Below, in pieces: positions 47,261 through 50,338 of a DNA stretch of 64,000 nt; the stretch's first letter is position 1, and every line of letters starts with the position of its first letter. Under the pieces are notes generated by a model. It made no database searches. It saw only the letters and a program-made list of their open reading frames with translations, and was not told the DNA's origin. The stretch lies in the NCBI GenBank assembly GCA_014360645.1, contig JACIXD010000004.1, positions 124,001 to 188,000 of the forward strand. The letters run 5' to 3'. Source of the DNA: Actinomycetota bacterium. Lineage in GTDB: Bacteria; Actinomycetota; Geothermincolia; Geothermincolales; RBG-13-55-18. The translations under genes and the position numbers were made by a program.

Positions 47261-47986
47261 TTGGAGCTCAAGGTAGGTTGCTGCGGATTCCCCCAGGCCC
47301 GCCAGATCTATTACGAGACCCTGCCCCTGGTGGAGCTCCAGAAGACCTTCTACCAGCTGCCGCGGGTCAAGACGGCCCAGAAATGGCGTCAAGAGTCCCC
47401 GCCCCATTTCGAGTTCACCCTCAAGGCTTGGCAGCTCATCACCCACCGGCCCTCCAGCCCCACCTACAAGCGCCTCACCCATCCCATACCCGAGGAGTCC
47501 CGTGATGCCTACGGCTCCTTCAAACCCACGCCGGAGAACTTCGCCGCCTGGCGCGAGACCCTGGAGGTGGCCACGGCTCTGGACGCGGAGATCGTCCTCT
47601 TCCAGACCCCTGCGACCTTCACCCCCGGTCCCAAGAACATCGCCCAGATGCGCGAGTTCCTGTCCACCATAGAGCGCGGCAGGCTGCAGCTGGCCTGGGA
47701 ACCCCGCGGCCAGTGGGATGCGGAGGAGGCGGGGAGGATCTGCCGCGAGCTGGACCTGTTGCACGTGGTCGACCCCTTCCGGGGTCGGGAGAAGGCCGGG
47801 CAGATCATCTACTGGCGCCTGCACGGCATCGGCAGCTACCGGCACCGTTACACCGACCAGGAGCTGGGGAAACTTGTGACCATGCTGCGCAGGAGCAAGA
47901 AGAAACGCGCCTACGTGCTCTTCAACAACATCAACATGTGGGAGGACGCCCAGCGCCTGCTGGAGCTGTGGAGACGACGCTCCTGA
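47261..47986 (+). CDS. DUF72 family TIM-barrel protein
   Basis: A 241-residue protein of the DUF72 (YecE-like) family: VGCCGFPQARQIYY at the N-terminus, then FEFTLKAWQLITH, QLAWEPRGQWD and YWRLHG. The family is widespread and its biochemical role is not settled. The start is TTG 47261 after GAGGTGCTGAG. It may be cotranscribed with no other gene; it converges on the HEPN-like gene. Confidence 0.85.
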   Translation: MELKVGCCGFPQARQIYYETLPLVELQKTFYQLPRVKTAQKWRQESPPHFEFTLKAWQLITHRPSSPTYKRLTHPIPEESRDAYGSFKPTPENFAAWRETLEVATALDAEIVLFQTPATFTPGPKNIAQMREFLSTIERGRLQLAWEPRGQWDAEEAGRICRELDLLHVVDPFRGREKAGQIIYWRLHGIGSYRHRYTDQELGKLVTMLRRSKKKRAYVLFNNINMWEDAQRLLELWRRRS

Positions 47987-47994
47987 GGAAACCC

Positions 47995-48101
47995 CCTTCA
48001 GTCCTTTTCCGCCGGACGCACCCTCGCCCCGTTCGTAGTCCGCGGCATATGTCAAGTCTTAGAACCTTCAGTCCTCCTCCGCCGGACGCACCCTCGCCCC
48101 G
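47995..48101 (-). repeat. Duplicated 3' end of the HEPN-like gene
   Basis: A 37-bp segment at 48065-48101, which includes the stop codon and last codons of the HEPN-like gene, recurs at 47995-48031 (offset 70 bp, two mismatches). The spacer between copies (48032-48064) is unrelated. Confidence 0.9.
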
Positions 48102-48469
48102 AGCTCGGTCACGAAGGAGCGGGCGTCCTCGAGGCAGGCGGCGGATGTGAGGGGATCCGCCTCCACCTCCCCGCCGGAGACGCGCCGGTAGAGGTCGGCG
48201 ACGATGGCGAGGGAGCGCTGGTTCTCCTTGCTCAACCCCAGGTGCGGAAGTATCCGTCCCTGGAAGGCCGCCACCACGTCACGCCAATCCGATAGGCCCT
48301 GAGCGGTGTCGAGGGCGGCACGGGCGGCATAGAGCATGGCCAGGAAGGAGCTGGCGACGACCTCTTCGCCCATGCCCGCCAGCAGGAACTCCCCCGCCAT
48401 GGCCAGGACCATGTCCGCCTGCTCCAGCCAGTCCACCGCCGGATCGTCGAACTCGAAAACGCCGACCAC
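48068..48469 (-). CDS. HEPN-domain-like helical protein
   Basis: A 133-residue all-helical protein. DWLEQADMVLAMAGEFL, then ASSFLAMLYAARAALDTA, follow the HEPN pattern in which a helix with xxYYAMFHAARALL is typical. A final helix (CLEDARSFVTELGARV) also fits. The RNase motif RxxxxH of toxin-type HEPN proteins is not evident, and no MNT nucleotidyltransferase partner lies nearby, so it may be a non-catalytic member. The start is placed at GTG 48469 after GGAGGAGG; a TTG 17 codons earlier sits too close to its ribosome-binding site. Confidence 0.6.
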   Translation of the reverse strand: MVGVFEFDDPAVDWLEQADMVLAMAGEFLLAGMGEEVVASSFLAMLYAARAALDTAQGLSDWRDVVAAFQGRILPHLGLSKENQRSLAIVADLYRRVSGGEVEADPLTSAACLEDARSFVTELGARVRPAEED

Positions 48470-48556
48470 CGCGCCTCCTCCCGCGGGCAACCCGTGCGTG
48501 TCGACCCTTGATCGTTCCAAGCCTCCCGATTCTCCGCTCGCGACCCCTTTCTAACT

Positions 48557-48562: not shown

Positions 48563-48617
48563 GTGGGAGGTGGGCGAGGTCAAACGCCGCCGCGGTTCCG
48601 GCCCCGAAAGGAGAGCG

Positions 48618-49481
48618 ATGGAGTTCTTCAAGTACCACAGCCTCGGCAACGATTTCATCCTCATCGACGCCCTGCGCTCGCCATTGCGCCTCTCGCCGGC
48701 GGAGATCCAGATGCTCTGCCACCGTCACTTCGGCATCGGCGGCGACGGGATCCTGGTCATGGAGCCCTCGCAGAGGGCCTTCTGCCGCATGGTCAACTAC
48801 AACCCCGACGCCAGCCAGGCGGAGACGAGCGGCAACGGCCTGCGCTGCCTGGCCAAGCACCTCTACGAGACCGGGCTCTACCCCCACCGGGAGATGGAGG
48901 TGGACACCGCGTCGGGGGTAAAGAAGCTGCGCGTGCGCGTCGCGGGAGGTAAGGTGAGCTCGGTGGAGGTCAACATGGGCCGTCCCGATTTCCGCCGCTC
49001 ATCCATCCCCATGCTGGGAGAACAGGAGGAGGCCGTGGAGGTGGAGCTGGAGGCGGCGGGAAGGAAGCTGGCCGCCACCTGCCTCTCGCTGGGCACGCCC
49101 CACTGCGTGATCTTCGTGGAGGACGTGGAGGGATTCCCGGTGGGAGAGATCGGCCCCCTCATCGAGAGGGATCCCCTCTTTCCTCTCCGCGTCAACGTGG
49201 AGTTCGTGCAGGTGATGGACGTGTCGGAGCTCGGCCAGCGCTCCTGGGAGAGGGGGGCGGGGGAGACCATGGCCAGCGCCGCCGGAGCCGCCGCCGCCGT
49301 CGCCGCGGCGGAGCGCACCGGAAAATGCAAGCGGAAGGTCCACGTGCGCCTCGCGGGAGGGCTCATGGAGGTGGAGATCAACCCGCGGGGCGAGCTGCTC
49401 ACGCGCGGCACCGCCCGCAGGGTCTTCCGCGGCGAGCTCGACGCGGACTGGCGCGAGAGGAGCCGCATCGTCCTCGCCTGA
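48618..49481 (+). CDS. DapF-fold epimerase homologue lacking both catalytic cysteines
   Basis: The 287-residue protein follows diaminopimelate epimerase along its length: HSLGNDFILID, HRHFGIGGDGILVM, NPDASQAE, PLIERDPLFP, VNVEFVQV and WERGAGET. DapF uses two Cys as acid and base, normally in xxCGNG and ACGTG. Here the first site reads ETSGNGLRC (S71) and the second MASAAGA (S220); GNPH also reads GTPH. The classic two-thiol mechanism therefore cannot operate. It may be a diverged isomerase, a binding protein or an inactive paralogue, and a true dapF is expected elsewhere. The ATG follows GAAAGGAGAGCG. Confidence 0.85.
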   Translation: MEFFKYHSLGNDFILIDALRSPLRLSPAEIQMLCHRHFGIGGDGILVMEPSQRAFCRMVNYNPDASQAETSGNGLRCLAKHLYETGLYPHREMEVDTASGVKKLRVRVAGGKVSSVEVNMGRPDFRRSSIPMLGEQEEAVEVELEAAGRKLAATCLSLGTPHCVIFVEDVEGFPVGEIGPLIERDPLFPLRVNVEFVQVMDVSELGQRSWERGAGETMASAAGAAAAVAAAERTGKCKRKVHVRLAGGLMEVEINPRGELLTRGTARRVFRGELDADWRERSRIVLA

Positions 49482-49733: not shown

Positions 49734-50285
49734 TTATCCCTCCCGGGCCCGTGCGCAGGGGATGCAGAGGCGTCGGCCGTCCTTCTCCACCAGCCGCGTC
49801 TCCATGGTGGGCTCCCCGCATTCATCGCAGGGCACGGAGGCGCGTATCTCCGCCTCGGCCGGGAGCTCGTACTCCACCTCCGTGATGGAGAAGAGCTCCT
49901 CCGCCGGCGCGGTGAGCAGCCGTTCCGTGACCATCTCGCGCCTGCGCGAAGGGTCCTCTCCCTCTCCGGGGGGAGGGATGGCGCCGGCCTTGAGGCTTAC
50001 CCGCACCGCCCTGCCGGGGCGCCGCCGCGACGCGAAGGTGAACACCTGTTTGCCGTGGTCCCTGAAGACGAGGTTTCCCTTGCCGAAGGTACAGCCCGCC
50101 AGGAACTGCACCGCGTCCACGCTGCAGGAGTCGTTCTCCACCTCGCAGACCAGCTCCTCGTCATAGGCGCGGGCGATGCCCATGCGGAGCATGGCCTCGC
50201 GGGTGGCGCGGTAACCTATGGTCAAGCCCGGGCATAAGTGCCCGTGGAAATCCGCCGCCGCGCGCAGGTCCTCGGGTATATCCAT
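49734..50285 (-). CDS. FmdE family protein with C-terminal zinc finger
   Basis: A 183-residue protein. The N-terminal FmdE domain has FHGHLCPG (H14, H16, C18) and ENDSCSVDAVQFLAGCTFGKGN, the conserved metal-site and Cys residues of the FmdE/FwdE family. A C-terminal finger follows with C153, C156, C174 and C177 (PCDECGEPTME and LCIPC). The family was named from formylmethanofuran dehydrogenase but is common in bacteria without that pathway, often linked to molybdenum or tungsten enzymes; none is encoded nearby. ATG 50285 follows GAGGAGGTG. Confidence 0.85.
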   Translation of the reverse strand: MDIPEDLRAAADFHGHLCPGLTIGYRATREAMLRMGIARAYDEELVCEVENDSCSVDAVQFLAGCTFGKGNLVFRDHGKQVFTFASRRRPGRAVRVSLKAGAIPPPGEGEDPSRRREMVTERLLTAPAEELFSITEVEYELPAEAEIRASVPCDECGEPTMETRLVEKDGRRLCIPCARAREG

Positions 50286-50338
50286 GTCCTCACACCTCCT
50301 CATCTCCTCTCCCGAGGGCGCCGCCCGGCCGCCCTCCG

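Follow-up and report, generated by a model that had tools for sequence, protein, structure and literature searches.

A DapF paralogue of Candidatus Geothermincolales with serine at both catalytic positions, conserved beside a cysteine-type housekeeping DapF

Can a protein with the fold of diaminopimelate (DAP) epimerase, DapF, be of use to a cell when both of its catalytic Cys residues are replaced by Ser? The accepted account of cofactor-independent amino-acid racemases rests on a thiol pair, and Ser is regarded as too poor a base for the abstraction of an α-proton. The question is raised by a dapF-like gene in a 64,000-nucleotide stretch of an Actinomycetota genome (contig JACIXD010000004.1, positions 124,001 to 188,000; the window), which lies at 48618..49481 on the + strand and codes for a protein of 287 amino acids with Ser at both sites. 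Our analysis indicates that the genome most likely retains this paralogue as a functional protein distinct from its housekeeping DapF.

According to the initial annotation the gene product keeps the length and landmarks of DapF but has Ser at both catalytic Cys positions (S71 and S220), and the open reading frame, the protein families and the predicted fold all bear this out. The ATG at 48618 is preceded by a Shine-Dalgarno sequence rated as good (AAAGGAGA, 48607..48614, + strand), and folding of the leader RNA showed nothing remarkable. In a Pfam scan PF01678, and no other family, matches the protein in two stretches (E 1.2e-49), and the NCBIfam profile TIGR00652 (DapF) spans residues 1-274 with 249.8 bits (cut-off 114.65). 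The AlphaFold2 model, with a mean predicted local distance difference test score (pLDDT) of 93.7, superposes on solved DapFs, best on the cyanobacterial DapF 9mro with a template modelling (TM) score of 0.90. S71 (48828..48830, + strand), located in the motif SGNG, corresponds to the first catalytic Cys of Corynebacterium glutamicum DapF (CgDapF C83), and S220 (49275..49277, + strand), located in ASAAGA, to the second (CgDapF C221); in the model they directly precede helices 72-84 and 221-233, which is where DapF has its thiols. As both codons are AGC and no stop is involved, selenocysteine or an unusual genetic code was rejected. The protein ends in a tail (ADWRERSRIVLA, 49443..49478, + strand) with a predicted helix (278-286), which is of the D-W-R-E-R type in the clade and which most DapFs do not have.

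Orthologues, with 59-87% identity, are present in 11 further genomes, ten from the same family and one (G016) from another family of the same order, and all 12 proteins carry Ser at both catalytic sites, invariant while the adjoining columns vary. Thus, chance or a base error cannot explain the Ser/Ser pair. Three of the 12 loci were matched in named Actinomycetota records, one of them Candidatus (Ca.) Solincola quzhuomuensis of the class Ca. Geothermincolia. The paralogue was found only in Ca. Geothermincolales and in none of 13 further genomes of the class outside this order, in a scan of our collection that relied on exact peptide patterns, so that distant relatives outside the phylum may have escaped; most genomes in the comparison are draft or metagenome assemblies, and in two of them (G012, G017) the contig ends at or before the expected site. 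In all 55 genome pairs the paralogue is better conserved than the housekeeping DapF (mean identity 69.2 vs 60.7%), and the ratio of nonsynonymous to synonymous substitution rates (dN/dS), computable for only two pairs, is about 0.03-0.04, which together argue for purifying selection. The Ser/Ser form is therefore a conserved clade, and a second, Cys-containing DapF is encoded in the same genome.

This second DapF has Cys at both sites (G000:C6:85104-85943) and lies between miaA and dapL, the gene for LL-DAP aminotransferase, in the operon order miaB-miaA-dapF-dapL-hflX, whereas the Ser/Ser paralogue sits outside the dap operon. lysA is present as well, and the synthesis of lysine and peptidoglycan is explained by the Cys/Cys copy. 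In one member of the order (G003, L134) the operon-type DapF is itself Ser/Cys, alongside the Ser/Ser paralogue.

Does the Ser/Ser pair by itself tell us that the paralogue is no epimerase? The two catalytic positions were read in 177 DapFs of the phylum, and besides the 12 paralogues there are nine Ser/Cys forms, seven Cys/Ser forms and one Ser/Ser form, the latter from a 99% complete genome (G082). In 15 genomes with such serine-type DapFs a family search found a single DapF gene (two half-domain hits each). Moreover, the relatives of G082 have Ser/Ser in all 29 readable copies, which come from four families (f34, f38, f39 and f40; L224-L253), and in 25 genomes of at least 91% completeness from these families this is the sole DapF gene; lysA is present in all 25, in 24 of them over the cut-off. 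Among 30 sole-copy loci fetched, an adjoining dapL-like match was found in 27 and a miaA match in 28, and in G082 the full miaB-miaA-dapF-dapL-hflX order surrounds the Ser/Ser DapF. A bypass via meso-DAP dehydrogenase is not supported, as none over the cut-off was detected in 12 genomes, G082 being the only sole-copy Ser/Ser genome covered. The sole-copy Ser/Ser proteins thus occupy the place expected of the epimerase, and the genetics suggest that they epimerise DAP. Since the sole operonic DapF elsewhere is Ser/Ser, a Ser/Ser site is compatible with an epimerase role, and the argument that a Ser/Ser protein cannot be an epimerase fails because operonic sole-copy Ser/Ser, Ser/Cys and Cys/Ser DapFs are widespread in the phylum. 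The sole-copy families are perhaps a larger finding than the gene of the window. In a further family (f18; L188, L190, L196, L197, L199) the sole-copy DapFs are Cys/Ser and carry ASGSGSC or ASGTGSC; for two of these proteins the genome is a closed single contig. The literature library, searched for mutants by residue names, yielded no match.

What sets the paralogue apart is not its serines but its lost DAP contacts. The contacts were taken from the structure of CgDapF and transferred by motif alignment, so that N15, N74, N85, N159, N194, E212, R213, T223 and the two Cys correspond to positions 11, 62, 73, 160, 193, 211, 212, 222, 71 and 220 of the protein encoded in the window. In CgDapF the substitutions N15A, N74A, N85A, N159A, N194A, E212A, R213A, T223A and both Cys-to-Ala exchanges almost abolish activity (PMC5296763). 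N11, N62, N73, N193, E211 and R212 are invariant in all DapFs compared, including the 12 paralogues. The protein from the window has T160 (49095..49097, + strand) in place of the Asn that contacts the distal carboxylate (CgDapF N159), and A221-A222 (49278..49283, + strand) in place of the Gly-Thr of the α-carboxylate clamp (CgDapF G222, T223). Across the clade N160, G221 and T/S222 are kept in only 3/12, 0/12 (Ala in all 12) and 4/12 paralogues, while they are found in 100% of the Cys/Cys, Ser/Cys, Cys/Ser and sole-copy Ser/Ser DapFs covering them (29/29 for the latter); indeed, the 16 DapFs with a single Ser site and the sole-copy Ser/Ser forms keep every DAP-contact residue. The initial annotation had further noted GTPH in place of GNPH, which holds for seven of the 12 clade members, the others having GNPH (three) or GSPH (two). 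All 12 paralogues have N60, S209 and A221, and A65 is present in 11/12; the alignment thus shows a site in which most of the half recognising the distal amino-acid head is intact and the catalytic half (S71, S220, A221, N60, A65) is rebuilt. As functional-looking Ser/Ser forms retain N160, G221 and T222 and the paralogue mostly does not, its task is expected to differ. P63 (NPD, beside N62) is common to both Ser/Ser groups (12/12 paralogues, 29/29 sole-copy forms) and is rare in Cys/Cys proteins (15/147); it is a possible accessory change for Ser sites.

We therefore favour, as a tentative explanation that falls somewhat short of an even chance, that the paralogue is an isomerase which uses Ser for catalysis and has some amino acid different from LL-DAP as its substrate, and a paralogue of diverged function, as proposed initially, remains the best reading, except that Ser at the catalytic positions alone does not mark a non-epimerase. 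S71 and S220 would cap the two central helices like the Cys pair and might abstract or return the α-proton of a substrate amino acid that is unlike LL-DAP at its reacting end. The protein would thus isomerise an amino acid (a dehydratase is less likely), and lysine and peptidoglycan would be left to the Cys/Cys DapF. That both Ser residues are strictly kept amid drifting columns favours a catalytic or direct ligand role. Moreover, Ser can serve in this fold, since Ser/Cys epimerases and a Ser/Thr dehydratase of the proline racemase superfamily are active (PMC4113996). The precedent from this superfamily, to which the initial annotation had pointed, is real and even stronger than claimed, with both kinds of pair on record (PMC4113996).

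Several observations weigh against this explanation. Single Cys-to-Ser mutants of histidine racemase lose most of their activity (PMC11602996), Ser is a weak base with a much less favourable pKa (PMC8142540), and no measured activity of a natural Ser/Ser form came to light. The residue at Ser+3 is G74 and not the Asn that positions the catalytic Ser in enzymes of the proline racemase family (PMC4113996), and three orthologues (G007, G014, G016) retain N160 and T222. Among the classified neighbours no pathway gene points to a substrate. Finally, in G008 the paralogue is gone and its neighbours adjoin, so that a clean loss of the gene can occur.

The strongest competitor, possible but rather doubtful, is a ligand-binding pseudoenzyme, which would catalyse nothing; it would bind DAP, an amino acid resembling DAP or a partner protein, and serve as sensor, regulator or subunit. 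The intact recognition half-site next to an altered catalytic one and the conserved C-terminal tail would fit such a protein, as would the finding that E. coli DapF(C73&217A) remains able to bind and activate RppH, which shows that the fold has catalysis-free roles (PMC4227774). However, both Ser residues are strictly kept instead of drifting to other residues, Ser/Ser is also found where an epimerase is expected, and no regulatory partner gene is conserved beside the paralogue. Still less probable is a true second DAP epimerase whose Ser/Ser pair is immune to the switch-off by disulfide formation between the catalytic Cys that inactivates CgDapF (PMC5296763). Although sole-copy Ser/Ser DapFs exist and the TIGR00652 cut-off is passed, the paralogue has lost G221 in 12/12, N160 in 9/12 and T222 in 8/12 cases, all of which every other DapF keeps, Ser/Ser forms included; it lies outside the dap operon, and the genome already has a Cys/Cys DapF. 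We consider it quite improbable that the protein is a dehydratase or another one-base lyase acting on a β-hydroxy amino acid, as known from the proline racemase superfamily: 4k7g and 6r76 are among its structural matches, but the protein lacks the Ser+3 Asn motif, the classified neighbours include no gene of a hydroxyproline or pyrroline pathway, and two Ser are kept where one base would suffice. An assembly or sequencing error or a pseudogene, which the draft state of most assemblies might suggest, can practically be dismissed, as both codons agree across 12 independent genomes, in which the frame is intact and purifying selection is strong.

How did the two Ser/Ser groups arise? The 12 paralogues form one clade with full support. 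In a first tree this clade pairs with the Cys-containing DapFs of its own order (support 90), although a second tree resolves this pairing less well; the grouping would place a duplication near the base of the order. We take the paralogue to have arisen a single time in Ca. Geothermincolales, most likely as a duplicate of the DapF native to that order. A horizontal origin from Bathyarchaeota, which provide the best non-orthologue hits (~47% identity), was rejected on the basis of the same grouping. The sole-copy Ser/Ser group, whose G082 member is ~34% identical to the paralogue of the window (P0001), branches with Cys/Cys and Ser/Cys DapFs, a fully supported grouping that speaks for an origin independent of the paralogue. 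Forcing a single Ser/Ser clade is 25.1 log-likelihood units worse than the free tree, which puts Cys/Cys forms beside the second group, and the approximately unbiased (AU) test does not reject one Ser/Ser clade (p 0.109). We speculate, with some reserve, that thiol-free DapF sites evolved in Actinomycetota, probably twice, one lineage using Ser/Ser as its only DAP epimerase, in which a serine pair would catalyse the 1,1-proton transfer of an amino acid that is not activated, and the Geothermincolales paralogue acting on a new substrate.

The surroundings of the paralogue are largely those of plain vertical inheritance, with synteny broken just downstream in G006 and G010. A divergently oriented gene for a conserved 150-amino-acid protein that belongs to no Pfam family (48068..48520, - strand) adjoins it in 11/12 loci, a gene for a DUF72 protein (47261..47986, + strand) is a syntenic neighbour in 12/12, and a gene whose product is a fusion of FmdE domain and DksA/TraR zinc finger (49734-50303, - strand) adjoins it in most loci. 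The 150-amino-acid neighbour is still present in G008. An attempt to derive the function from these neighbours, together with a glyoxalase and a B12-binding radical SAM protein, led to no pathway.

The two-thiol rule for DapF may not be universal, as another branch of the phylum has only a Ser/Ser DapF, and the conserved paralogue together with whole families relying on a sole Ser/Ser DapF makes the rule testable by ordinary enzymology. Thiol-directed DapF inhibitors are expected to act unequally across actinobacteria. Moreover, automatic annotation names the paralogue diaminopimelate epimerase despite its missing conserved DAP contacts.

Compared with known systems, the paralogue shares with DapF (TIGR00652/PF01678) the fold, the length, the six invariant contacts and the helix positions of the catalytic pair, but differs in Ser/Ser, G221A, N60, A65, the mostly lost N160 and T222, the C-terminal tail, its location outside the dap operon and the coexisting Cys/Cys DapF. 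With the sole-copy Ser/Ser DapFs it has S71/S220 and P63 in common, although these have lost no DAP contact, have no second DapF beside them in the genome and are usually encoded between miaA and dapL. The proline racemase superfamily, with Ser/Cys in 4-hydroxyproline epimerase or Ser/Thr in trans-3-hydroxyproline dehydratase, resembles it in the two-domain fold, in which each face provides one base, and in a first-site Ser that can be catalytic (PMC4113996), whereas identity in structural alignments is only ~14-16% and its Ser+3 Asn motif is missing in the paralogue. The histidine racemases HisR and CntK and O-ureidoserine racemase are DapF-derived racemases with a changed substrate, as proposed for the paralogue, but have kept the Cys pair (HisR: PMC11602996). 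E. coli DapF, finally, acts as RppH activator and thus sets a precedent for a non-catalytic role of this fold (PMC4227774), albeit as moonlighting of a normal enzyme.
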